A stretch of DNA of 49,907 nt from Methanoculleus frigidifontis (GTDB lineage: Archaea > Halobacteriota > Methanomicrobia > Methanomicrobiales > Methanoculleaceae): assembly GCF_030464345.1 (NCBI RefSeq), contig NZ_VCYH01000013.1, positions 1-49,907 on the forward strand, in the 5' to 3' direction. This document shows, in pieces, positions 33,010-47,540 of the stretch (position 1 is the stretch's first letter; every line of letters starts with the position of its first letter). The position numbers and the translations under genes were made by a program. The notes below the pieces were generated by a model that saw only the letters and a program-made list of their open reading frames with translations, was not told the DNA's origin and ran no database searches.

Positions 33010-33849
33010 TCACGCCAGGGGTTTGTACCAGACGTTCATGCTCTCGAAGGAGCCGCAGATGTTGGTGTTCTTCACCAGGGTTCCGGCGTAGGCGTAGCCC
33101 GCCCGGGCGAAGGTGATGTTGACCGGGTAGGACGCGGCGCGGCAGATCGTGAACGCCGTCTTCATCCCCGCATCCTGCATCGCGTTCTCCATCACCGCGA
33201 GGAGTCGGGCGGCGAAACCGTAACCGCGGAAGGCCGGATGGGTGGCGAAGTCGGTCATCTCGACGTTCTCCGCCTCCGCATCCATCTCGGATGAGGAGAC
33301 CGCAACGATCCGGTCGTGCGAGCGGACACAGACGTAGCGGAAGTTCTCCTCCATCGTCCGGGCGATGTACGCGGGGTCGTGGATCGGGAACGGGTAGGTT
33401 GCAAAGACCTCACGGTACAGGCCTGCGATCGCCGGAGCGTCCGCCGGCGTCGCCGGCGAAGAGGAGAAACCCTCCGGGAGATCGGCGGGCGGATCGCAGG
33501 CGGCCTTCTTTCGTGCGGCGGCGAGCACGTCGCCGAGCCCCGCCTCGGCCAGTCTCCGGGCAGGGTCGAAGTACTTTGCCAGAAAGCAGCCGTCCTCCCG
33601 CCCCTGGAAGAACCGCGGCACGCAGGCCTCCGTGACGTAGCCGCGGGCGGCGAAGAGGCCCTGCGCCGACGCCGGAACCTTCGCAAAGATCTTCCCGTAG
33701 CCCTTCTCCTCCGCGAGGGCGTCGAGCCGGTCGGGGAGCCCGGGAAGATCGCCCGCATCGAGGTGCATCAGGTAGATGCGGTCGTTCAGCGGCCCGTGCT
33801 GCACCGTGCTGCCGCCGAGGGTCGTAACCGTATCAGTCGTCGTCGTCAT
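33010..33849 (-). CDS. ablB: Beta-lysine N-acetyltransferase
   Basis: A 279-residue acetyltransferase that converts beta-lysine to N-epsilon-acetyl-beta-lysine, a compatible solute of methanogens. The C-terminal half is a GNAT domain with the acetyl-CoA loop region [19 protein letters not shown], and the end has the AblB-typical [40 protein letters not shown] pattern. The N-terminal half is specific to AblB. The ATG at 33849 overlaps the end of ablA by 17 bases and has GGAG just ahead, indicating translational coupling within an ablAB operon. Expression in relatives is salt-induced (family knowledge). Confidence 0.93.
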
Positions 33850-35149
33850 GTCTCCGGTCGAACCGTTCCGTGTTCTCGGGGACCAGCGAGATAGACTCGT
33901 CGTTTGAGAGGAGGCGGGCAATGCCGACCGCTTTGGACTCGTCGGCGTCGTCGAGCTTCAGCTGCAGGCGGCAGGTGTCGCACTTCCGGTCGCAGTAGAC
34001 CGGCTCGTAGGAGTCGGGCTCCTGGTAGGTCGTGATCACGCCCTCGTAGTTCCGGAGAACGACCTTGTTGGTCGACCAGGAGATGAGGTAATTGGGCATC
34101 ACCGGGATCTTCCCGCCGCCGCCCGGGGCGTCGATGACGTAGGTCGGGACCGCAAACCCGCTCGTGTGGCCGATGAGATTTTCGATGATCTCGATCCCCT
34201 TCGAGACCGGCGTCCGGAAGTGGGCGAGCCCCTCGGAGAGATCGCACTGGTAGAGGTAGTAGGGCCGGACACGGTTCTGGACGAGTTTGTGCATCAGCGT
34301 CTTCATGATCCGCGGGCAGTCGTTCACCCCGGCGAGGAGCACCGACTGGTTGCCGAGCGGAATGCCGGCATCGGCGAGCCGGCGGAGCGCCTCACGCGAG
34401 GACGCGGTGATCTCCGCCGGGTGGTTGAAGTGCGTGTTCACCCAGAGGGGGTGATGCTTCTTCAGCATCGCGGTGAACTTCTCGGTGATCCGGTAGGGAA
34501 GGACAACCGGTGTCCGGGTGCCGATCCGCACCACCTCGACGTGCGGGATGTCCGCTAGCTCGGTGAGGATCCAGTCGAGCCGGCTGTCCGAGAGCATGAA
34601 CGGGTCGCCGCCGGAGAGGAGAACGTCGCGGATGCAGGGGTTCTCCCGGATATACGCGATCCCTGCGAGGATCTCGGCCTCGTCCGGGATCGAGTCGACG
34701 TCGCCGACCCGGCGCTTCCGGGTGCAGTGGCGGCAGTACATGGCGCAGACGTTGCTGACCAGGAAGAGCACCCGGTCCGGGTAGCGGTGGGTGATGCAGG
34801 GCGCCGGGCTGTCGGTGTCTTCCGCGAGCGGGTCGGCCATGTCGCAGGCTTCGACCTGCAGCTCCGCAGGCTGCGGGAAGCACTGCATAAAGACGGGGTC
34901 GTTCCAGTAGTCGTCCGCGTCGATCAGGGAGAGATAGTAGGGCGTAATCCGAAGGGGGAACTTCCGGATCGTCTCTTCCAGGGCTTCGCGCTCGTCCTCC
35001 GGGAATTCGATGCCGAGCAGCCGCTCGAACGTGGAGATATCGGTGACGGCGTGCTTGACCTGCCACCGCCAGTCCTTCCACCGGTCGATCGCGGTGTCGG
35101 CATCGATCCTGTTGGCAATAGCCTGTTGATTCGGTGAAAAAATAACCAT
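33833..35149 (-). CDS. ablA: Lysine 2,3-aminomutase
   Basis: A 438-residue radical SAM enzyme converting L-alpha-lysine to beta-lysine, the first step of N-epsilon-acetyl-beta-lysine synthesis. The SAM cluster motif is CAMYCRHC (Cys135, Cys139, Cys142). The PLP lysine lies in [15 protein letters not shown], and three zinc-type cysteines appear near the end ([11 protein letters not shown]). The start at 35149 is fixed by the ribosome binding site GAGGAGGAACC directly upstream. A TATA box (rc of 35184-35193) lies about 38 bases before the ATG, placing the transcript start just ahead of that site. It is followed by overlapping ablB. Confidence 0.96.
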
Positions 35150-35183
35150 AGGTTCCTCCTCGGGTCTTACGTATATCGCCAAG

Positions 35184-35193
35184 AATATATAAT
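35184..35193 (-). promoter_or_regulatory. ablA: ablAB promoter TATA box
   Basis: On the - strand ATTATATATTC forms a strong archaeal TATA element. Its centre is about 27 bases ahead of the ablA ribosome binding site, so the transcript would begin near 35161 with a very short leader. It is in the 177-base divergent region shared with the radical SAM/HhH gene. Confidence 0.7.
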
Positions 35194-35326
35194 GGGTTTG
35201 GATATCCTTTATAAAGAGCCGGATTGGCGAAACCGTTCTCCAAAGAGGCATTTTGGCACGGAGGGGCACTCACTTTCGCCCTGCACATCGTGCTCTTATC
35301 ATCTCCGGCGCGGAGGTACGTGCATT

Positions 35327-36409
35327 ATGTCCCTGCGCGAACAGAAACTCCGGAACCTGACATCGGCGGGCAGATACGACGTCTGCTCCCCGGGCGAGTG
35401 CATGCAGTACCTCACCGAAGCGCCCTGCATCACGTATGCCCCGCGCCGCGGCGGCTGCGGCCGGATGCTCCGGGTGCTGATGCACGGGGACTGCGCCTAC
35501 GACTGCGCCTACTGCCCTATCCGGGTGGCACGCGAGGGGTTCTCGTTTACGCCGGCCGAACTTGCGGAGACGTTCCTCCGCCTGCACCGCGAAGGGATGG
35601 CGGACGGGCTTTTTCTGAGCTCAGGGATTGCCCGGGACGTGGATACGGTGATGCACGACATCGTGGAGACCGGCGAGCGTCTCCGGCGGGCCGGGTATGC
35701 CGGCTACCTGCACCTGAAGGTGCTGCCGGGCGCCGCCAGGTCCGACATCCGCGACGCCGCCCGGGTGGCGGACCGGATCAGCATCAACATCGAGGCACCC
35801 TCGGCGGATCGGCTCGGCAGCGTCGCCGGCGTGAAGGACTACCGGATCGACATCAAAAAGCGCCAGGACTGGGTGGCCGAGGCCATGCCGGACCGCCACA
35901 CGACGCAGCTCGTCGTCGGGGTCGCCGACGAGACCGACCGGGAGATCTTTGCCTGCGTGCAGGAGCAGTACCGGCGGGTCAGGCCGACGCGGATCTACTA
36001 CTCGGCCTTCCGGGCGCTTGCAGGAACGCCGCTTGCCGACCAGCCCGACACACCGGCATGGCGGGCACACCGGTGGTACCAGCTTGACCACCTCCTCCGG
36101 GAATACCGGATCGATCCGGGTGAACTCGACCGGATCTTCGATGCGGCGGGCAGCCTCGCCAACCGCGACCCGAAGGTGATCCTCGCGGAGGGGATGGGGG
36201 TCGTGGACGTCAACACCGCGTCGCGGTACGACCTTCTGCGGGTGCCGGGGATCGGGCCGGCCGGCGCCGACCGGATCCTGCGGGAGCGAAAGACACGGCA
36301 CTTCGAAAGTCTCCGCGACTTAAAAGCGATCGGCATCCGGACGCGGTGGGCGGCAGGCTACCTCGCCTTCCCGCGGGAGCGGACGGTGCAGACCCTTCTA
36401 CCGGTCTGA
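35327..36409 (+). CDS. Radical SAM protein with C-terminal helix-hairpin-helix (putative DNA modification/repair)
   Basis: A 360-residue radical SAM protein. The cluster motif is CAYDCAYC (Cys56, Cys60, Cys63), preceded by extra cysteines in YDVCSPGECMQYL and GGCGRML. From about residue 285 a helix-hairpin-helix region reads VVDVNTASRYDLLRVPGIGPAGADRIL, a DNA-binding fold. The family is widely annotated as putative DNA modification/repair radical SAM protein, but its reaction is not known. The ATG at 35327 was chosen for the GGAGGTA eight bases upstream; the frame is open back to 35192 but that stretch overlaps the ablA promoter. It is divergent from ablA. Confidence 0.88.
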   Translation: MSLREQKLRNLTSAGRYDVCSPGECMQYLTEAPCITYAPRRGGCGRMLRVLMHGDCAYDCAYCPIRVAREGFSFTPAELAETFLRLHREGMADGLFLSSGIARDVDTVMHDIVETGERLRRAGYAGYLHLKVLPGAARSDIRDAARVADRISINIEAPSADRLGSVAGVKDYRIDIKKRQDWVAEAMPDRHTTQLVVGVADETDREIFACVQEQYRRVRPTRIYYSAFRALAGTPLADQPDTPAWRAHRWYQLDHLLREYRIDPGELDRIFDAAGSLANRDPKVILAEGMGVVDVNTASRYDLLRVPGIGPAGADRILRERKTRHFESLRDLKAIGIRTRWAAGYLAFPRERTVQTLLPV

Positions 36410-36439
36410 CTATTTAACCCGGGGAGGCGAAGGATCTCT

Positions 36440-37048
36440 ATGCAGATCATCGATGTGACCAGGCCCCTTGCGCCCGGCATGCCCGCCATACCCGGCGTGA
36501 CGCAGCCGGTCTTCCGGCAGCGGGATACCGGGCAGTACCGTATCAGCGACGTCCTCCTCTCCACCCACGGCGGCACCCATATCGACGCCCCGGCGCACTA
36601 CCTGGAAGGCGGAGCGGTCGTCGACGCCCTTCCCCTCGACCACCTCGTCGGCCCCTGCCGGGTGCTCGACCTCGGCGGGGTCGCGGGCGCGATCACGTCC
36701 GAAGACCTGGAGGGGCGGCTATGCGGCGCCCGCCGCCTTCTCCTGAAGACCGGGTACGCCATGGCCGACCCCTTCAGCCCCGATTTTGCGCACCTCGACA
36801 CCGACGCCGCCCGGCTCCTCGTCCGGGAGGGTGTTGCCTGCGTCGGGATCGACACCCCGTCGATCGAGGCCATCCCGTGCGACGGGGCGGTGCACCGCGC
36901 GCTCCTGGGGAGCGGCTGCGCTATCATCGAGATGCTCGACCTTGCAGCGGCGGCGGAGGGGGAGTACACCCTGCTCGCCCTGCCGCTCCCGCTCGCCGGC
37001 CTCGACGGGTCGCCGGCGCGGGTGGTGCTCTGCAGGGAAGAGGAGTGA
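36440..37048 (+). CDS. Cyclase-family metal hydrolase, second copy
   Basis: A 202-residue member of the cyclase / kynurenine-formamidase family. It starts MQIIDVTRPLAPGMPAIPG and carries the metal site HGGTHIDAPAHYL at about residues 47-59, later VGIDTPSIEAIPCDG and HRALLGSGCAIIEML. It is shorter than the copy at 10739-11398 and only distantly similar, so they probably have different substrates. A TATA-like TATTTAA lies about 27 bases upstream and GGGGAGG precedes the ATG. It converges with the next gene (four bases between stops). Confidence 0.82.
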   Translation: MQIIDVTRPLAPGMPAIPGVTQPVFRQRDTGQYRISDVLLSTHGGTHIDAPAHYLEGGAVVDALPLDHLVGPCRVLDLGGVAGAITSEDLEGRLCGARRLLLKTGYAMADPFSPDFAHLDTDAARLLVREGVACVGIDTPSIEAIPCDGAVHRALLGSGCAIIEMLDLAAAAEGEYTLLALPLPLAGLDGSPARVVLCREEE

Positions 37049-37052
37049 GGCC

Positions 37053-38366
37053 TTACTCCCGTGTGCCGTAGTAGCGGAAGAGGAGCCCGGTCGCCGCCCG
37101 GATGTCCGCACCTTGCGTCCGCGCTTCGCCGAGGTAGGTGTTGTAGACCTCGTCGGTGACGAGCCGCATCTGCGGCCGGAACATATCGGCGTGCATCATC
37201 AGGTCGAAGCAGCGTGCTTCGCTCTCGGTCAGGTGCAGCGGCCGGTACTCGCCGGTATGCGGCACAAACGCCGGGTTCTTCTCCCGGGGCGTCGTGAGCA
37301 CCAGGTCGGCGAGCGGTGTCCTCGGGATGGGCTCGGCGCTGCTCACGAAGACGTCGTCGAGGCAGAGGGACGCGATCAGGTCTTTCGTCTTTTCGTAGTC
37401 TTTTTCGGTCTCGCCGGGGTAGCCGACGATGAAACTTCCTGCAACTTTCAGCCCGTGCTCCCGGCACGCGGCGACCGCGTCCTCCACCTGCCGCACCTTC
37501 GCGCCCTTCCCCATCAGCCGCAGAACCCGGTCGCTCCCGGACTCGACCCCGAAGAAGACCCAGCCAATGGTGTACCGCCGGATCGCCTCGAGCACCTCAT
37601 CGGTGATGCAGTCGACCCGGATGTCCGGCGACGAGATGTTCCGCGGCCCCATCACCTCGGCCATCCGGGCGAGGAGCTCGACGAACGCCCCGGCGTTGAC
37701 GGTGCCGTCGCGGGAGGCGTAGAGCGAGCCCGTGCCGCCGCTGACCGAGAGGCGGGTCGCCCCCATCTCCTTGAAGGCCTTCACCTCGGCGATGACGTCG
37801 TCGAGGCTGCGGCTCCGGATCGTGCGGCCGAAGAACCGGGGCACCTGGCAGAAGGTGCAGCCCCCGATGCAGCCCCGGTGCGTCTCGATGTAGGCGCTCG
37901 CTCCGCGGATGCTCTGGCTTCCGATATCGGGCGGGATGAGTGGGAGCGGCCGGTCAAGCGATGCCGGGGGCGCCGGATCGGTCACGACCACCGTATCGTC
38001 GTCACGGTATGCGATCCCGGGGAGCCCCGGCGAGACGCCCTCGTCGACGAGGCGGAGGATCGTCTCTTCCCCCTCGCCGACCACGACCGCGTCGGGCGCA
38101 AGCTCGCCGATCACCATCTCCGGCGCCGCAGAGACCGGCCCGCCAACGTAGACGACGCCGCCCGATGCCCGGTGCGTCCGCACGAGATCGCGGATAGCCG
38201 GATCGAGGAGATGCTGCGTCGAGAAGAGGCTGAGCAGCAGAACCTCGCCCGCGGACGCCTCCGCCGCCCTGCTGATGGCCACCTCGTGGCCTGCAGCACG
38301 GAGGACGCCGCCGATCAGCATGGCACCGTAGGTGTAGATGCCCGGGGAGACGATTCCAATATGCAT
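37053..38366 (-). CDS. Cobalamin-type radical SAM protein (archaeal)
   Basis: A 437-residue protein with an N-terminal B12-binding-like Rossmann domain (starting MHIGIVSPGIYTYGAMLIGG, with VVYVGGPVSAAPE) and a radical SAM core with HRGCIGGCTFCQVPRFFGR as the CxxxCxxC cluster site. SGGTGSLY, GVESGSDRVL and SFIVGYPGETEKDYE follow as standard core strands. It belongs to the archaeal B12-binding/radical SAM families related to methanogen methyltransferases. A role in methylating methyl-coenzyme M reductase is conceivable because relatives do so, but I cannot assign it to that subfamily. It is not clearly in an operon. Confidence 0.82.
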   Translation of the reverse strand: MHIGIVSPGIYTYGAMLIGGVLRAAGHEVAISRAAEASAGEVLLLSLFSTQHLLDPAIRDLVRTHRASGGVVYVGGPVSAAPEMVIGELAPDAVVVGEGEETILRLVDEGVSPGLPGIAYRDDDTVVVTDPAPPASLDRPLPLIPPDIGSQSIRGASAYIETHRGCIGGCTFCQVPRFFGRTIRSRSLDDVIAEVKAFKEMGATRLSVSGGTGSLYASRDGTVNAGAFVELLARMAEVMGPRNISSPDIRVDCITDEVLEAIRRYTIGWVFFGVESGSDRVLRLMGKGAKVRQVEDAVAACREHGLKVAGSFIVGYPGETEKDYEKTKDLIASLCLDDVFVSSAEPIPRTPLADLVLTTPREKNPAFVPHTGEYRPLHLTESEARCFDLMMHADMFRPQMRLVTDEVYNTYLGEARTQGADIRAATGLLFRYYGTRE

Positions 38367-38415: not shown

Positions 38416-39093
38416 TCACCGCGGAGAGAGCCCCCGCAGCCGCCGCACCTCGTCGATGCTGTGGCAGCCCCGATCGGCCCGCTCGATCAGCCGTTTCTGG
38501 TAGCCGAGGATGTCGGCGATGAGCGGTTCGGGATGCCGCGTCAGTGCCTCCTCCGCCGTCGTGCGGGCGTCACGGAGTTTCCCGGCACGCCGCAGGAGGT
38601 CGACCAGGATGGCATCGTCGCCGCCGTCCTGCGTCGCAAGCAGGTCGCCCTCGCGCCGGGCCTGCTTCATGAGCGCGGCGGCACGCTTCCGGCAGAGCCG
38701 GGCGGCGACGTCGTTTTCCTGATCGTCACAGACCCAGGCCGCGTGAATGCACGCCCATGCAGCCCGGCCGCGCTTTCCGGCATCCTCCTGGATGAGCGAC
38801 CAGCAGAGGAACGTATTCGCCAGGTCCGGGAAGGTGCGGTTCCCGAGCTGCTCCCGGTAGCGGGGGAGCCGGACGGTCTCGGCCGCACCCGGGACCCGCT
38901 TCCCGACGTCGGGAGCGGCGTAGCCGCAGGCCGGGCAGCGCTGCACCCAGGCGTAGATCGTCGACCGGAGGGGGTCGGACGGCCGGGTATCGAGGTCGCG
39001 GGAACCGACCGCGCCGGCCTGCCCCGGATGTGAGAAGCGGCACTGCTCTCCGCAGACTGCACAGAAGGTCTTGAGGTATTGCTGCCGGTGCAT
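38416..39093 (-). CDS. DUF2225-like zinc-ribbon protein
   Basis: A 225-residue protein with two cysteine pairs near the N-terminus, CAVCGEQC (Cys11, Cys14, Cys18) and CPACGY (Cys53, Cys56), a zinc-ribbon layout. The remainder is alpha-helical with TPR-like character (TFLCWSLIQEDAGKRGRAAWACIHAAW, DLLRRAGKLRDARTTAEEAL). This resembles DUF2225 proteins, whose function is unknown. A TATA-like TATATTC lies about 27 bases ahead of the ATG on the - strand, suggesting a near-leaderless transcript. Neighbours give no functional clue. Confidence 0.65.
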   Translation of the reverse strand: MHRQQYLKTFCAVCGEQCRFSHPGQAGAVGSRDLDTRPSDPLRSTIYAWVQRCPACGYAAPDVGKRVPGAAETVRLPRYREQLGNRTFPDLANTFLCWSLIQEDAGKRGRAAWACIHAAWVCDDQENDVAARLCRKRAAALMKQARREGDLLATQDGGDDAILVDLLRRAGKLRDARTTAEEALTRHPEPLIADILGYQKRLIERADRGCHSIDEVRRLRGLSPR

Positions 39094-39264: not shown

Positions 39265-40347
39265 TCATCCGCCGGTCTGCTGGAGATCCGCCACGCGGCG
39301 GGCGTAGGCGGTCGTCGCCCAGGCAAGCAGCCCTGTCGCCAGCAGGACGATGCCGAGCATCACCCAGTGAGCCGCCCCTGCGGTATCCACCGAAAGCCGG
39401 ACGATCAGGTTGAGCGGATTGTAGGGCACCGCCATGGCGAAGAGGACGACCACCACCAGCGCTGTCGAGAAGACGAACTGTGCACTGGTGCGCTCCCGGT
39501 AATGGAGCGCCACGAGCGTCCCGAGGAGGATCAGCCCAAGGCCGCCCGCCGCGACGTGGAGGAGGATCTCGGGTGCGTGGTCGATGGCGATCCCGTTCGC
39601 CGCCAGCAGGACGAGCCAGATCCCCGCCTGCAGGGGTATCAGCACCTCGCAGACCAGGATCTTGCCCCAGATCATCTCCAGGAAGGTGACCGGCGTCGAA
39701 AGGAGGGTCTCGAGCGTCTGGCGCTGGTACTCCTCGGTGATGAGATCGATGATCAGCGCCGCCGAGATGATCGCCGGCATGAAGACGAGCAGCGGGATTA
39801 GGAGGCCGTACACGAACTCGAAGAAGTCGGTCCCGCCGATCCCCTCCGGGAAGTTCAGCCGGACCGGGAACGACTCCAGCCGATCGGAGCGGACCTCGCG
39901 GAGCTCCGCCTCGTAGCCGAGGAGAACGTCCTTCATCTTCACGTTGATGAGGCTCGACTGCAGGTCGTTCTGCAGGAGGTAGAGCGTGAGCTTGACCGGC
40001 TCGGCAGCATCCGGCGGCGTATCGGGAGCGTAGACGACCGCCGCGAGTTTCCGCTCCTTCAGGGCGGCGACGCCCTCGGCAAGGTCGACGCGGTAGAGCC
40101 GGAGGTCGTCCCGTTTTGCAAACTCCGCCACAAGGGGCGAGTCCTCCCCGGCGTAGCCGACGGCGTACTCGACCGTCGAGTAGCCGGCCATCGTCTCGGG
40201 GTCGTACATGCTGGCAAGCCCGACCAGCAGGAACGACGAGAACATGGCGATGAAGAGCTGCAGCAGCACGGCAAAGAGGATCGTCTTCTCCGCATACAGC
40301 CCGGAGAACTCTTTTCTGGCAATGATGCCGATATTCCGTCCGTTCAT
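39265..40347 (-). CDS. ABC-2 type exporter permease
   Basis: A 360-residue ABC-2 type permease. One helix near the N-terminus (about residues 21-45) is followed by a large extracytoplasmic domain (about 50-180), then five helices. The block LITEEYQRQTLETLLSTPVTFLEMIWGKIL before the third helix is the coupling region typical of NatB/YhaP-like exporters. It overlaps the other permease by four bases (ATGA) and would pair with it and the ATPase across the divergent promoter. The substrate is unknown. Confidence 0.85.
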   Translation of the reverse strand: MNGRNIGIIARKEFSGLYAEKTILFAVLLQLFIAMFSSFLLVGLASMYDPETMAGYSTVEYAVGYAGEDSPLVAEFAKRDDLRLYRVDLAEGVAALKERKLAAVVYAPDTPPDAAEPVKLTLYLLQNDLQSSLINVKMKDVLLGYEAELREVRSDRLESFPVRLNFPEGIGGTDFFEFVYGLLIPLLVFMPAIISAALIIDLITEEYQRQTLETLLSTPVTFLEMIWGKILVCEVLIPLQAGIWLVLLAANGIAIDHAPEILLHVAAGGLGLILLGTLVALHYRERTSAQFVFSTALVVVVLFAMAVPYNPLNLIVRLSVDTAGAAHWVMLGIVLLATGLLAWATTAYARRVADLQQTGG

Positions 40348-42146
40348 AGAAGGCCTCCCATGAAGTAGAGGTTATATGCGGCGTGCACCATCGTCGCGGT
40401 CAGGAGCCCGACGCCCCAGAAGCGGCTGCCCCCGATCTTCAGGTAGAGGGCAACGATCAGCACCCCGGCGAAGTGGAGGAGGAGCGGCATCCAGAGCACC
40501 TGGAGCGAGAGGAAGAGGATCTCGCCGAAGACCGACTCGGTGATCTGTGAGAGCGTCGCGAGCAGCAGAACCTTCTCACCGACGAGGAATCCGAGCGCGA
40601 TCAGGAGCGCACCGGCCACAAGATTTTTGACCGTCAGGAAGCCCGGCCGGCTCCGGACGAGGGCATAGAGCCCTATCGACTTGGCGAACTCCTCGATGAA
40701 CGCCGACGCCCCGATGAGCAGGATCAGGGAGAGGGGCATCGGCATGTTGAAGAAGAGGACGAGGCACATCATCTGCACCATGAAGACGAACGGCACCGAG
40801 AAGGCGGCAAGGAGACCGAGGGAGAGGAGCGGGCGGCTCGCGGAGATGCCGCTTGCCACAAACTCCATCAGCCGCGGCAGCAGGCGTTCCTGCGAAAAGA
40901 GCCGTTCTTCGGTGAAGTTCGTCACCCCCGCGTAGAAGAGGACGAGGCTGGTTGCGAAGAAGAGGGAGGTCGAGTAGAGGTACTCGGCGGCGGTGAACCC
41001 GTCGCCCTGCAGCTGCAGCACGACCAGGGTGAGCGGGGAGATGATGCTGACGATGTGGACATTCGCAAAGACCGTCGGGAAGAAGAGGTATGAGGTGACC
41101 AGGGTCGAGAAGAAGATCGAGAGGAAACTGAGCTCCTTGAAGCTGCGTGCCGCCATCCCGATGATCAGGGCGCTTGCCATGAAGAAAAGGATCACCGGAA
41201 AGAGCGGGAGGAGGATCAGCAGCGACGCACCGTTCATCAGGGTGATGACGGCGGCGATCAGCAGCATGATAGCGAGGTACGGCAGGGATTTGCCGAGCAG
41301 GATCGCCCCCGGCCGGACGGGCGTCGAGAGGAGGGCCTCGCCGACGCGGCCGAGCCGCTCGTTCATGATGCTCATCATGAAGAACTGGGCGGTGAAGTAG
41401 AGCGGGAAGATGAAGACGAAGATGAGGATGATCGAGTCGAAGGGGAGCGGCGGCGAGAGCTGCGACGGGGTCTTGAAGGTCTCCATCCCGGTATCGGCGG
41501 TGAGGATATCGGTGTAGCGGGTGAAAGGGGTATCCGCGGTATCGGTCGCCAGGTGCCGGCGGAGATCGTCGGGCGAGAACGCGACGGCGGACGAGGGGGG
41601 CGTCATCGCCGCCACCGGGCCTTCGGGCACCGGAGGCGATGCTGACCGCGGGGGAGCCCCGACCTGCCGGCCGCTCTCTGTGGCCGCGAAGTCGAGTTCG
41701 CTCTGGACGTATTCCATATTGATCCAGAGCGGGTAGGCGGCGAAGAGGTCGGGCTGGCCGGTCGCCACCCATGAGACGTAGCCGGAATAGTCGCGCTCCA
41801 GCGCCTTGAGCGCGGACCGCCCCTTCCCGTCGTCGGCGGCGTAGACCTCGCCGCCGATCACGATGACGTCATAGGCGTAGCGGTTCTGCCAGAGGCCGGG
41901 GGCAGAGTCCTGGAAGACCGTGAACCGGTCGTCGCCGGCGACGATCCGGGCGACGTCCGGATCGTCGACGCCGAGCCGGTACATCCCGTCCTGGAGATGG
42001 ATCCCCTGCTCTGCGGCAAACCCGGTCACCAGGACGAGCAGGATCAGAAGCCCGACCGCCAGGGGCAGCACGTTCCTGCCCATGGAAGTCATCGACTTCT
42101 TCAGCTCCCATACGGCTATTGTCAGGACGGAGGAAAGGTGACTCAT
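40344..42146 (-). CDS. ABC-2 permease fused to a PrsW-like intramembrane protease domain
   Basis: A 600-residue membrane protein in two parts. Residues 1 to about 410 are an ABC-2 permease: helix, large external domain, then helices with MMSIMNERLGRVGEALLSTPVRPGAILLGKSL as coupling block. Residues about 430-600 are a second helical bundle with AFIEEFAKSIGLYAL (EExxK near residue 485), GFLVGEK (about 522), LLLHFAG (about 557) and MVHAAYN (about 587). These match the Glu-Glu, second Glu and His motifs of PrsW / CPBP-type intramembrane proteases. The joined frame is continuous. It suggests an exporter that processes its substrate or partner in the membrane (inference). It starts at ATG 42146, divergent from the ATPase gene, and is followed by the second permease with a four-base overlap. 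Confidence 0.82.
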   Translation of the reverse strand: MSHLSSVLTIAVWELKKSMTSMGRNVLPLAVGLLILLVLVTGFAAEQGIHLQDGMYRLGVDDPDVARIVAGDDRFTVFQDSAPGLWQNRYAYDVIVIGGEVYAADDGKGRSALKALERDYSGYVSWVATGQPDLFAAYPLWINMEYVQSELDFAATESGRQVGAPPRSASPPVPEGPVAAMTPPSSAVAFSPDDLRRHLATDTADTPFTRYTDILTADTGMETFKTPSQLSPPLPFDSIILIFVFIFPLYFTAQFFMMSIMNERLGRVGEALLSTPVRPGAILLGKSLPYLAIMLLIAAVITLMNGASLLILLPLFPVILFFMASALIIGMAARSFKELSFLSIFFSTLVTSYLFFPTVFANVHIVSIISPLTLVVLQLQGDGFTAAEYLYSTSLFFATSLVLFYAGVTNFTEERLFSQERLLPRLMEFVASGISASRPLLSLGLLAAFSVPFVFMVQMMCLVLFFNMPMPLSLILLIGASAFIEEFAKSIGLYALVRSRPGFLTVKNLVAGALLIALGFLVGEKVLLLATLSQITESVFGEILFLSLQVLWMPLLLHFAGVLIVALYLKIGGSRFWGVGLLTATMVHAAYNLYFMGGLL

Positions 42147-42227: not shown

Positions 42228-43115
42228 ATGATACGCGCTCGCGACCTGGTCAAGTACTACAACGACTTCCCCGCCCTCGACGGCATCTCCTTCGACCTTG
42301 AGGACGGCGCCATCCTCGGGATCATCGGCCACAACGGCGCCGGGAAGACCACGCTTCTCAAGATCCTGGCGGGCCTGATCCGCCCGACCTCCGGGACGCT
42401 TACCGTCGACGGCATCGACGTGGTCCGCCGGCCGATCGACCTGAAGCGGCAGCTCGGCTACCTCCCCGAAGAGTCCCGCCTCTACGAGACGATGACCGTT
42501 GACGCCTACCTCTCCTTCTTCGGCGAGATCTACGGCATGGATGCGGCGGCCATCCGGAGGCGGCGGGACGAACTCCTCGACTCGCTCGCCCTCGACGCAG
42601 AGGGCAAGAAGCTCGGGGAGCTCTCGAAGGGGATGAAGCGCAAAGTCGCGATAGCGCGGTCGCTGATCCACGACCCGGCGCTCCTCATCTACGACGAGCC
42701 GACCTCCGGGCTCGACCCCATGACCTCCCGGTTCGTCATCGACTATATCAGAGACCTGCGCTCGCAGGGCAAGACGGTCCTCTTCTCGGGCCACAACCTC
42801 TACCAGGTCGAGGAGGTCTGCGACGCCGTGATGATCCTGCGGCGGGGAAAGACCGTCGCCTCGGGCAGCATGCACGACCTGCGCGAGATGTTCGGTTCGA
42901 TCACCTACCAGATCCACTTCATCGTCCCGGACGGCGCACCCTTTACGACCGAGGTCGCGCACACCGAGCACGACGGGCTGTACCTGGCGACGGCACGGAC
43001 GGTCGAGGAGCTGAACCGGATCACCGCCACGCTCACCGCCGAAGGCGCCGCGATCGAGCGGATCGAGTCGCAGTACCCGACGCTCGAAGAGATGCTGGTG
43101 AAGATCGGGAAGTAA
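42228..43115 (+). CDS. ABC transporter ATP-binding protein
   Basis: A 295-residue ATPase with Walker A GHNGAGKTT (about residues 36-44), the Q-loop region GYLPEESRLYE, signature LSKGMKRKVAIAR, Walker B LLIYDEPTSGLD and switch His in FSGHNLYQVEEV. The C-terminal 70 residues form the extra domain common in exporters of the CcmA/NatA type. It is transcribed divergently from the two permeases across an 81-base region with TATA-like sequences at 42190-42197, so all three genes probably serve one exporter. Ribosome binding site GGGGTGAT lies five bases before the ATG. Confidence 0.93.
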   Translation: MIRARDLVKYYNDFPALDGISFDLEDGAILGIIGHNGAGKTTLLKILAGLIRPTSGTLTVDGIDVVRRPIDLKRQLGYLPEESRLYETMTVDAYLSFFGEIYGMDAAAIRRRRDELLDSLALDAEGKKLGELSKGMKRKVAIARSLIHDPALLIYDEPTSGLDPMTSRFVIDYIRDLRSQGKTVLFSGHNLYQVEEVCDAVMILRRGKTVASGSMHDLREMFGSITYQIHFIVPDGAPFTTEVAHTEHDGLYLATARTVEELNRITATLTAEGAAIERIESQYPTLEEMLVKIGK

Positions 43116-43803: not shown

Positions 43804-44683
43804 TGAGCGGGTGGCCGTCATCGGGGCCGGCCCCGCCGGGATCGCGGCCGCGGTCCAGCTGCAGCGATCCGGCCATCGTCCGCTCGTCTTCGAGAAAGGA
43901 ACGCCCGGCGGCCTGATCCGCGAGGCGAACAACGTCGAGAACTACCCCGGGTTTCCGGACGGAATACCCGGCTTTGCACTCGCCGATCGCCTGGCGAGCC
44001 ACCTGGAACGGCTCGGCGTCCGCCTCGTCATGGGCGAAGTTCTCCGGCTCGATTATACGGGCGCGGAGTTTGTGATCGAGACGGCGGGAGACGTCTACCG
44101 GGCATCGAACGTCATCGTAGCGCCGGGGACGAAGCCGCGGCGATGGGAGGGCGCGGACGTCTCTCGGGATGCAGAACACCGGATCGTCTCGGGCATCATT
44201 CCGCTCCGGGATCTGCGCGAAAGCACCGTCGCCGTCCTCGGCGGAGGAGACGCTGCGTTCGACTACGCCCTGCACCTCTCCCGCGCAAACGACGTCGTGA
44301 TCGTCAACCGGAGCAGACGGACACGGTGCCTCCCGCTGCTCCGTGAACGTGCGCGGGCTTGTGCACGCATCACCTGCCTGGACGATACCCGGATCGAAGC
44401 GGTAACGCGCGGGGGCAGGGGACTCGTCCTCCGGTGCAGGACGGGGGAATATATCCGGGACTGTGAAGCCGACTACCTTCTCACCGCCATCGGCAGGGAA
44501 CCGGCTCTCGACTTTATGAGTGAAGACCTGAAATATAATCTGGACGCGCTGCGGGCGGAGAGACGGATATGGATCGTCGGAGACGCGACGGCCGGCGTCT
44601 TCCGGCAGACCGCCGTCGCCGCGGGAACGGGGATGAGAGCCGCAATGGAACTTGACCGAAGGCTGAGAGGTGACAGGGAATGA
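43784..44683 (+). CDS. FAD/NAD(P)-binding oxidoreductase, thioredoxin reductase-like
   Basis: A 299-residue flavoprotein with the FAD motif VAVIGAGPAGIAAAVQL (about residue 10), GTPGGLIREANNVENYPGFPDGI as in thioredoxin reductases, the NAD(P) motif VAVLGGGDAAFDYAL (about 148) and the FAD-binding IWIVGDATAG near the end. The redox CxxC of thioredoxin reductases, normally just ahead of the second glycine motif, is absent, so it is not a dithiol reductase and may pass electrons to another partner. The neighbouring radical SAM enzyme, which needs a reductant, is an attractive candidate (inference). The ATG at 43784 overlaps the hydrolase end; the radical SAM gene overlaps its stop (ATGA). Confidence 0.85.
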   Translation: MKQARDSERVAVIGAGPAGIAAAVQLQRSGHRPLVFEKGTPGGLIREANNVENYPGFPDGIPGFALADRLASHLERLGVRLVMGEVLRLDYTGAEFVIETAGDVYRASNVIVAPGTKPRRWEGADVSRDAEHRIVSGIIPLRDLRESTVAVLGGGDAAFDYALHLSRANDVVIVNRSRRTRCLPLLRERARACARITCLDDTRIEAVTRGGRGLVLRCRTGEYIRDCEADYLLTAIGREPALDFMSEDLKYNLDALRAERRIWIVGDATAGVFRQTAVAAGTGMRAAMELDRRLRGDRE

Positions 44684-45624
44684 GAGTGCTGGCCCAGACG
44701 GGATGCGACGATATCGCGAGGGTATACATCATGGGAACCGCGGCAGGGAGGAGGATCGAGTGCGTGGAATCCGTTCAGCCCCCGCTTTCGCGCGAGGAGA
44801 AGTGGGTGCTGATCGTCTCGACGCTGCACGGATGCCCCGTCGGGTGCTCCTTCTGCGACGCAGGGACGGAATACCACGGGAAGCTCACGGCCGAAGAGCT
44901 CCTCTTCCAGATCGACCACCTCGTCAGGAAACGGTACCCCGACGGCACCGTTCCTGCGAAAAAATTCAAGATCCAGTTCGCACGGATGGGCGAACCGGCC
45001 TTCAACCCGGCGGTCATCGACGTACTCGAAGTTCTTCCCCGGCGCTACAGAGCGCCCGGCCTCATCCCGTCCCTGTCAACGGTCGCTCCGCACGGAACGG
45101 ATCGGTTCTTCGAAGACCTGCTCGCTGTGAAGGAAAGACACTACCGCGGCAGATTCCAGCTCCAGTTCTCTCTGCACACCACCGACGAGCAGGTCAGGAG
45201 AACACTGGTACCGATCCGGACCTGGGACGTATCCCGGATGGCTCGCTACGGAGAGCTTTTCCATGAAGAAGGAGATCGAAAGATCGTGCTGAATTTTGCC
45301 CTCGCAGAGGGGGCACCGATAGACCCGGACATTCTGCTGCGGCATTTTTCTCCGGAGATCTTCCTGATCAAGATCACTCCGATCAATCCGACGTATGCCG
45401 CGATCAGGAACAATCTCTCGTCCTATATCCGGCCGGACAAGACAGAGTACAAACGGGTGCATGACCTGAAAGCAGCCGGTTTCGAGGTCATCGTCAGTAT
45501 CGGGGAACGTGAAGAGAACGCTATCGGGAGTAACTGCGGCCAGTACGTGCTCACCCATCAGCGATCACAGCAGCCGCTGAAGACCGGATATACCTATGAC
45601 ATCTCGCAGGAGACGCTTCTCTGA
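44680..45624 (+). CDS. RlmN/Cfr-like radical SAM enzyme
   Basis: A 314-residue radical SAM protein with CPVGCSFCD (Cys52, Cys56, Cys59) and FARMGEPAFNP, the same arrangement as the MGMGEPLxN block of RlmN. QFSLHTTDEQVRRTLVP and a C-terminal SNCGQYV (Cys at about residue 286) follow, equivalent to the methyl-carrying Cys in RlmN/Cfr (xxCGQL). It is shorter at the N-terminus than RlmN. The conserved pair of functional cysteine sites suggests a methyl-transfer mechanism of the RlmN kind on an unknown target. It is translationally coupled to the flavoprotein. Confidence 0.83.
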   Translation: MRVLAQTGCDDIARVYIMGTAAGRRIECVESVQPPLSREEKWVLIVSTLHGCPVGCSFCDAGTEYHGKLTAEELLFQIDHLVRKRYPDGTVPAKKFKIQFARMGEPAFNPAVIDVLEVLPRRYRAPGLIPSLSTVAPHGTDRFFEDLLAVKERHYRGRFQLQFSLHTTDEQVRRTLVPIRTWDVSRMARYGELFHEEGDRKIVLNFALAEGAPIDPDILLRHFSPEIFLIKITPINPTYAAIRNNLSSYIRPDKTEYKRVHDLKAAGFEVIVSIGEREENAIGSNCGQYVLTHQRSQQPLKTGYTYDISQETLL

Positions 45625-45960: not shown

Positions 45961-46073
45961 ATTCACTTGACTTAACAGAATAGAACGGGAGCGGAAATAA
46001 ATCTTCCGGATTCCTCCCGAAAATCGGCCTCATCGTATCCCTTAATAAGATGAGAAGTTACACCATTGTACGC

Positions 46074-47540
46074 ATGCCTGAGGCGGTTCAGAACGTATCG
46101 AAAGAGCGAATCAAATATATCATACTCGGGTGCGGGAGCACGGGATATAACGTCGCCGAAGAACTTGTCCAGGAGAATGAAGACCTCATCATCGTCGACG
46201 GCGACGAAAAAAGGGTCGAAGACCTCCGCGACAGGAAGTACGAGGCGCTCGTCCGGGACATCCGCGACCCCCACCTCCTCGACGGACTGCCGGTGCCGGA
46301 AATCGCCTTTATTTTAAGCAACGACAAGGACGCCAACATAGCAGCTCTTCGAAGCGTCAAGAACCGGTACCCCGCCACCTATGTGATCGCCCGTGCGGTC
46401 GACCCGGTGAGCGTCGATATGCTGCAGGAGGAAGGGGCGGACATCGTCCTCTACCCCCAGGAAGTCGTCGCAAAGACGGCCATCCACCACATCAGAAAGC
46501 TCCACTCGTCCCGGCTCGCGATGCGGCTCTACGACCTCCTTGCAGGGTGGGAAGGGACACTCGGGATCGTGACCCACATCAACCCCGACCCCGACGCCAT
46601 CTCGAGCGCCATGGCGCTCTCGATGATCGCACGCCACGCCAGCCACAATAAGCTCGCCTGCCGGATCCTCTACGAGGGGAATATCGGGCACCAGGAGAAC
46701 CGGGCGTTCATCAACCTTCTCGAGATCAAGATGGAGCGGCTCACGCCCCAGGTCCTCGGAGAGTGCGACTACCTGGCACTCGTCGACTCGGCCGCTCCCG
46801 GTGTCAACAACGAGCTCTCTCGTAGCACCCGGGTCAATATCATCGTCGACCACCACAAGAACGGCGAACCGCCGAGCGCCATCGCCGACTTCATCGATAT
46901 CAGGCCGGGTGTCGGCGCGACGGCCAGCATCATGACCCAGTACCTGATGGAACTGGACATCCCGGTGAGCAAGACCGTGGCCACCGCCCTTCTCTACGGC
47001 ATCAGGGCCGACACCCGGGACTTCAAGCGGAACGTCACCCCGCAGGACCTGAGCTACGCCGCGTTCCTCCTGCCCCTGACCGACTCGGACCTGCTCGGCA
47101 AGATCACCTCCCCCTCCATGTCGCAGGAGACGCTCGATATCCTGGGGACCGCCGTCCGGAACCGGAAGATCAAGAGCGGCTACCTCTTCTCGAACGTCGG
47201 CTACGTCCGGAACCGCGATGCGCTCCCCCAGGCGGCCGACCTCCTGATCCAGCTCGAAGGGGTGAACACGGCGATCGTCTACGGCATCGGCGACCAGCAG
47301 ATCATCATCTCCGGCCGGAACAAGGACATCCGCCTCCACCTCGGCAACGTCATGGGCGAGGCGTTCGGAACGATCGGCGAGGCCGGAGGGCACGCGACCA
47401 TGGCGGCGGCGAGTATCCCCTTAAACTACTTCACGATGGTGAAGGACAAAGAGGAGCTGCTCCAGCTCATCATCGACCCCGTCCTGAAGCAGTTCACCAA
47501 CCTGGTCGGCCTGGACGGCGAGGATAAAGATGAAATTTGA
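46074..47540 (+). CDS. DHH phosphoesterase with N-terminal TrkA-N domain
   Basis: A protein of about 488 residues. The N-terminal 120 residues are a TrkA-N Rossmann domain (KYIILGCGSTGYNVAEELV, then LIIVDGDEKRVEDL), which binds NAD or nucleotides. Residues from about 155 are a DHH phosphoesterase: THINPDPDAISSAMAL, ALVDSAAP, and VDHHKNGEP as the DHH motif. The C-terminal DHHA1 part has the GEAGGHATMAAASIP motif. Archaeal proteins of this layout are probably nucleotide or cyclic-dinucleotide hydrolases, though the substrate is not proven. The ATG at 46074 lies about 29 bases after a TTAATAAG box, fitting a leaderless start; ATG 46050 would add eight residues. It overlaps mptE by 11 bases. Confidence 0.9.
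   Translation: MPEAVQNVSKERIKYIILGCGSTGYNVAEELVQENEDLIIVDGDEKRVEDLRDRKYEALVRDIRDPHLLDGLPVPEIAFILSNDKDANIAALRSVKNRYPATYVIARAVDPVSVDMLQEEGADIVLYPQEVVAKTAIHHIRKLHSSRLAMRLYDLLAGWEGTLGIVTHINPDPDAISSAMALSMIARHASHNKLACRILYEGNIGHQENRAFINLLEIKMERLTPQVLGECDYLALVDSAAPGVNNELSRSTRVNIIVDHHKNGEPPSAIADFIDIRPGVGATASIMTQYLMELDIPVSKTVATALLYGIRADTRDFKRNVTPQDLSYAAFLLPLTDSDLLGKITSPSMSQETLDILGTAVRNRKIKSGYLFSNVGYVRNRDALPQAADLLIQLEGVNTAIVYGIGDQQIIISGRNKDIRLHLGNVMGEAFGTIGEAGGHATMAAASIPLNYFTMVKDKEELLQLIIDPVLKQFTNLVGLDGEDKDEI

Follow-up and report, generated by a model that had tools for sequence, protein, structure and literature searches.

In Firmicutes, the coupling of intramembrane cleavage and export is known from separate proteins: the ABC transporter EcsAB and the intramembrane protease RasP or Eep act together on membrane peptides (PMC7157817, PMC2996298). 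In S. aureus, both Eep and EcsAB are needed for the processing and export of lipoprotein-leader peptides (PMC7157817), and loss of EcsAB inhibits RasP and RasP-dependent cleavage (PMC2996298). In the TMcin pathway, the site-2 protease TmcP cuts a transmembrane peptide, which is secreted by the ABC pump TmcBC (PMC13252029). For the locus described here, these precedents are functional and not homologous; the protease that works with EcsAB is a separate, unfused zinc site-2 protease of another clan, and no homology between the proteases is claimed.

A fusion of an ABC permease and an intramembrane protease has been catalogued in bacteria as NF041647 (NCBIfam; model length 636), with a NatB-like permease and a CPBP protease. 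The PrsW family (PF13367, MEROPS M82), which includes PrsW of B. subtilis, has a published pattern of EExxK, a later His and HxxxD, while HxxxN is found in CAAX proteases (PMC4602095). In reviews of membrane proteases in archaea, PrsW-like proteins figure only as proteins without a known function or substrate (PMC9263693, PMC4343526). Little is known in general of how archaeal cells dispose of membrane peptides, including the remnants of signal peptides.

We analyzed a stretch of 49,907 nucleotides from Methanoculleus frigidifontis (contig NZ_VCYH01000013.1, positions 1 to 49,907; hereafter the window), which contains a gene joining an ABC-2 permease to a predicted PrsW-type domain (FUS), together with a second permease gene (PERM2) and a divergent ATPase gene. 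The features are as follows.

39265..40347, minus strand: PERM2, second ABC-2 permease, 360 aa (ABC2_membrane_3 at 2e-16; adjacency; co-absence)
40344..42146, minus strand: FUS, fusion protein, 600 aa (single frame; ABC2_membrane_3 over the cut-off; orthologues phylum-wide)
40347..40841, minus strand: predicted PrsW-type domain of FUS, residues 436-600 (PF13367 in homologues; invariant motif columns; AlphaFold model)
40917..42146, minus strand: ABC-2 permease part of FUS, residues 1-410 (Pfam; hydropathy; AlphaFold helices; partial NosY match)
42228..43115, plus strand: ABC ATPase of the DrrA/NatA type, 295 aa (ABC_tran at 1.2e-32; motifs; conserved neighbour)

The FUS frame runs on the minus strand from an ATG at 42146 to a stop codon at 40344 and encodes 600 residues without a break. 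A reading made beforehand from the letters alone (the sequence-only reading) had given these coordinates correctly, leaving the strand unstated, and had described an ABC-2 permease joined in one frame to a domain with EExxK, a second Glu and His motifs; the frame, the Pfam match and the conservation of the motifs confirm this description. The N-terminal part matched ABC2_membrane_3 (PF12698) with an E-value of 5.5e-8, above the curated cut-off. Hydropathy and the AlphaFold model agree on a first transmembrane helix at about residues 26-44, a large acidic loop at 45-235 and further transmembrane helices up to about 408; after a short polar linker, another helical domain starts near residue 436. 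The C-terminal part carries the motifs EEFAK (485-489), GFLVGEK (E524), LLLH (H558) and HAAYN (H588, N592). Read-through or an assembly artefact was ruled out as an explanation of the fusion, because the orthologous frame is complete and free of stop codons in well over 100 genomes. A fold search with full-length FUS returned weak matches, mostly to other transporters, including a partial match to NosY, and a sequence search of the PDB with the C-terminal and full-length profiles gave no matches.

The ATG of PERM2 overlaps the stop codon of FUS (ATGA), suggesting translational coupling of the two permease genes. The ATPase gene is divergent from FUS, their start codons lying 81 bp apart; its product matched the drrA model below that model's curated cut-off and retains an intact Walker A (GHNGAGKT), signature (LSKGM), Walker B (LLIYDE) and H-loop. 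With PF12698 in both permeases, a cognate DrrA-type ATPase and a conserved locus, the unit has the genes expected of an ABC-2 type exporter. It resembles the NosDFY, DrrAB and NatAB exporters in its DrrA-type ATPase and in the partial structural match to NosY, but differs from them in having two unlike permeases, one of which bears a protease domain.

PERM2, FUS and the ATPase adjoin one another in nearly all loci with enough flanking sequence, at 29-82% identity to the proteins of the window. In several distant loci the ATPase gene is turned so that the three genes form a co-directional run, as in Haladaptatus, where the FUS copy (WP_227356692.1), lying beside its ATPase and PERM2, bears no annotation beyond “ABC transporter permease subunit”. 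The three-gene locus is kept from Methanomicrobiales to haloarchaea. Among good-quality genomes of the order that lack FUS, PERM2 was also absent in 15 of 15, and both genes were present in all five controls with FUS. This adjacency across the phylum and the joint loss of FUS and PERM2 bear out the proposal that the divergent ATPase, the second permease and the fusion constitute one unit.

FUS was found in all 26 good-quality genomes searched of the same family, usually as a single copy, and in 116 of 135 good-quality genomes from the order; a phylum-wide sample contained it in 185 of 321 good genomes from many families. Named matches belong to Methanomicrobiales, for example Methanoculleus, Methanoregula, Methanospirillum, Methanocalculus and Methanomicrobium. 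FUS is missing from the listed members of genus g21, whose genomes measure about 1.1-2.0 Mb, and from scattered other genomes; FUS and PERM2 were both missing in the eight members tested for both, and the genus offers a natural comparison set for genes lost together with the unit. In two families whose genomes measure about 1.5-2.6 Mb the frames are somewhat shorter and still reach the C-terminal end. Among the matches listed, there was no split version of the fusion, and no permease half occurred without the protease half except as contig-end fragments or broken frames.

To what family the C-terminal domain belongs was judged mainly from its homologues, because the copy in the window matched neither PF13367 nor any other protease family. 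PF13367 matched 41 of 71 homologous C-terminal domains (best E 3.5e-8) and 22 of 41 in A3, an alignment of 41 homologues sampled across the phylum (best E 3.3e-9); no other Pfam family matched the domain in A3 at 0.01. In a six-frame search many orthologues exceeded the curated cut-off of PF13367, reaching up to 31 bits against 23.5, and these matches fall inside orthologue frames of about 600 aa. NF033739 was also matched in FUS homologues. When the FUS domain was compared by hhalign with stand-alone PrsW of these genomes and of related ones, the alignment had an E-value of 6.4e-6 and a probability of 85, placing EExxK on EExxK, the GE glutamate on the LEN glutamate and HxxxN on HxxxN, with the middle His one column off beside a gap. 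Like FUS, the stand-alone PrsW proteins of these genomes have HxxxN as their last motif. FUS has EExxK, the second Glu, the later His and HxxxN in common with PrsW, while differing in its fusion to an ABC permease and in forming a divergent subfamily.

Through its relatives, the C-terminal domain of FUS is therefore assigned as a predicted PrsW-type intramembrane protease domain; the matches to PF13367 and the motif register support the PrsW-like identity that the sequence-only reading had proposed. Membership of the CPBP/Rce1 family (PF02517) was rejected, as the FUS motif is EExxK and not EExxxR and the profile matches were few and weak (four of 71 C-terminal domains, best 0.0085, with A3 giving none at 0.01). 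On the invariant residues and the PF13367 matches, we also rejected the alternative that this part is not a protease domain but simply another permease domain of the ordinary kind.

Many FUS-bearing genomes also carry an ordinary stand-alone PrsW. The genome of M. frigidifontis itself encodes one at 168622-169155, outside the window, as well as four Rce1-like (CPBP) matches, so that FUS is, by prediction, one of several genes for Glu-type intramembrane proteases in this genome.

Compared with NF041647, FUS has the same general layout of an ABC-2 permease followed by a C-terminal Glu-type intramembrane protease of the same broad superfamily. The protease of NF041647 is a CPBP, whereas that of FUS is predicted to be of the PrsW type with EExxK; the NF041647 permease part resembles PERM2 (E 2e-11) and not FUS, and the arrangement of partners differs. 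FUS was rejected as a member of NF041647, with no match at E<=1, and the curated cut-off of the model (435 bits) was passed by none of the 148 genomes searched in the phylum. The two architectures suggest that ABC-2 permeases and Glu-type intramembrane proteases were fused on more than one occasion, and such repetition argues for a real functional link. The sequence-only reading had not recognised the unit as described, which holds in part: we found no description of an archaeal ABC-PrsW fusion in the open-access papers searched, although subscription papers may report the architecture, and the bacterial permease/CPBP fusion was already catalogued.

We further analyzed the conservation of the predicted active site. 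Residues E485, E486, K489, E524, H558, H588 and N592 were identical in 83 of 83 full-length homologues aligned. Only 11 columns are invariant in the C-terminal domain in A3 (P452, E485, E486, K489, F520, E524, K525, P554, H558, H588 and N592), and they include the whole of the active site expected for such a protease. A second alignment of 33 full-length sequences (median pairwise identity 32%), built separately from sequences that overlap those of A3, gave the same invariant C-terminal set. The motifs are also kept in 25 distant orthologues, with one partial exception (L164) whose last motif reads HAGVN and retains the H and N. Such invariance of the predicted active-site residues is far beyond chance, and no homologue without the Glu and His residues was found among those examined, an outcome that favours the sequence-only reading.

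The AlphaFold model of the domain alone is confident (pLDDT 92.8, pTM 0.88), with EExxK lying within the helix 472-499 and the motif residues on those core helices where published PrsW, APH-1 and Rce1 would place them. This placement bears indirectly on whether the Glu and His residues lie close together, as the sequence-only reading requires. Its best match in the PDB was APH-1, with a probability of 0.84, a TM-score of 0.49 and a statistically weak E-value of 0.73; Rce1 was not listed, and LptF and a cytochrome c maturation ABC permease were also among the matches. APH-1, a subunit of gamma-secretase, is a recognised distant relative of Rce1 and PrsW, and the curators of ECOD note that ABCG/ABCA-type domains share a topology with APH-1 and CAAX proteases (PMC6588880). 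By itself the structural match is not decisive, given its weak E-value and a topology found in part in ABC exporter domains too; the sequence evidence of invariant residues and PF13367 matches is what decides the probable family of the domain.

These matches also bear on whether the domain still cuts. As APH-1 keeps several of the residues and yet acts as a scaffold, conservation is no proof of cleavage, and the PrsW-like domain might have lost proteolysis and might now contribute only structure to an otherwise ordinary ABC-2 exporter, much as APH-1 does in gamma-secretase. The position of APH-1 as the top structural match, the presence of LptF and the cytochrome c maturation permease in the same list, and the six-helix topology common to CAAX-like folds and ABC-2 domains (cf. 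PMC6588880) would all fit such a role. However, the full E-E-K/E/H/H/N set is invariant in FUS, while APH-1 has QExxR and no double Glu (PMC6588880), and PF13367 recognises the domain in relatives of FUS but gives no match in PERM2. We consider a purely structural role improbable.

To examine what the unit might act on, we compared all neighbouring frames against one another across 37 loci. No fourth gene was common across the phylum, the remaining large clusters being shadow frames of the three genes, and no conserved gene for a small secreted protein or lipoprotein was found near the locus. Because no fourth gene is shared, the cargo is not encoded by a conserved neighbour. The idea of a self-contained export-and-processing unit consequently stands for the machine and fails for its cargo. 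Archaeosortase A was considered as a linked gene and proved uninformative, being present in 30 of 30 genomes with or without the fusion.

In bacteria, bacteriocin loci come with ABC transporters and CAAX-like proteases. FUS could by analogy belong to a defence pump that gives resistance or immunity by clearing and cutting antimicrobial peptides that attack the membrane, archaeocins for example, and PrsW has indeed been linked to antimicrobial peptide resistance (PMC4602095). Such a role seems very improbable here: no bacteriocin-like or immunity gene neighbours the locus, and the single copy in most members of the order is unlike the patchy occurrence of defence genes.

A unit that is single-copy, widely conserved and free of a cargo gene would suit a housekeeping role, for instance in signalling or quality control, where the ABC part would sense or extract a membrane protein, through ATP-driven force or through occupancy, and the PrsW domain would cut it for degradation or release of a regulator, with no exported product. 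To our knowledge, archaea lack sigma/anti-sigma pairs of the bacterial type, which counts against this reading, as does the two-permease ABC-2 architecture, typical of exporters and extractors and not of pure sensors. In its favour, PrsW of B. subtilis carries out site-1 cleavage of RsiW, an anti-sigma factor (PMC9263693, PMC4602095). On this evidence we regard a signalling or quality-control role as unlikely, though less so than the scaffold and the defence pump.

Our preferred reading, to which we give even credence, is that of a heteromeric ABC-2 machine whose PrsW domain cleaves a peptide anchored in the membrane and whose ABC part extracts or exports a product. The complex would consist of the two unlike permeases and probably two copies of the one ATPase. 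The PrsW domain would receive from the bilayer a peptide that spans the membrane or is anchored in it, and would cut it at the paired-glutamate/histidine site, and the ABC part, driven by ATP, would pull the cleavage product from the membrane, most simply to the outside. Both parts would thus work on the same substrate, the protease making a fragment and the pump removing it. Remnants of signal peptides, leaders of lipoproteins and proteins with a single helix, with genes at other sites in the genome, are candidates for the substrate. Proteolysis and ATP-driven transport would be expected from what is known of the families, and we infer the class of substrate, the order of events and the direction of transport only indirectly. 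We counted the fusion, the invariant site with its PrsW/CAAX motif pattern, the conservation of the locus, the co-loss, the lack of intact permease halves without the protease half among the matches listed, the intact ATPase motifs and the functional precedents in favour of cutting and export, and against it the lack of a conserved substrate gene nearby, the scaffold role of APH-1, the weak structural matches and the absence of a PF13367 score for the domain in the window.

More tentatively, and with less than even confidence, we propose that the unit is an ancient archaeal pump in which an ABC extractor and a covalently attached PrsW site serve the same transmembrane substrates, so that one complex would couple intramembrane proteolysis to ATP-driven extraction, with the clearance of signal peptides or leaders, or peptide signalling, as a housekeeping function at the level of the phylum. 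As protease and pump are joined covalently in a single-copy, three-gene unit, the suspected coupling of cleavage and export is directly testable.

Several further features of the surroundings were observed. A 225-aa Cys-containing protein without a Pfam match (window 38416-39093) adjoins the locus in Methanoculleus-like genomes, and a TrkA_N domain fused to a DHH/DHHA1 phosphoesterase (46050-47540) is a frequent neighbour within the order and was unseen outside it. Radical SAM genes are dense around the locus (33836-38366 and 44680-45621) and include lysine-2,3-aminomutase-like, radical SAM-HhH and B12-binding radical SAM proteins; another frame in these stretches has a CxxxCxxC-like motif (CPVGCSFCDAG) and no Pfam match. 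Finally, some distant copies of the haloarchaeal type (L157, L165, L168, L170-L172) have longer open frames of about 700-950 aa, in which the loop that follows the first FUS helix seems to contain additional sequence.
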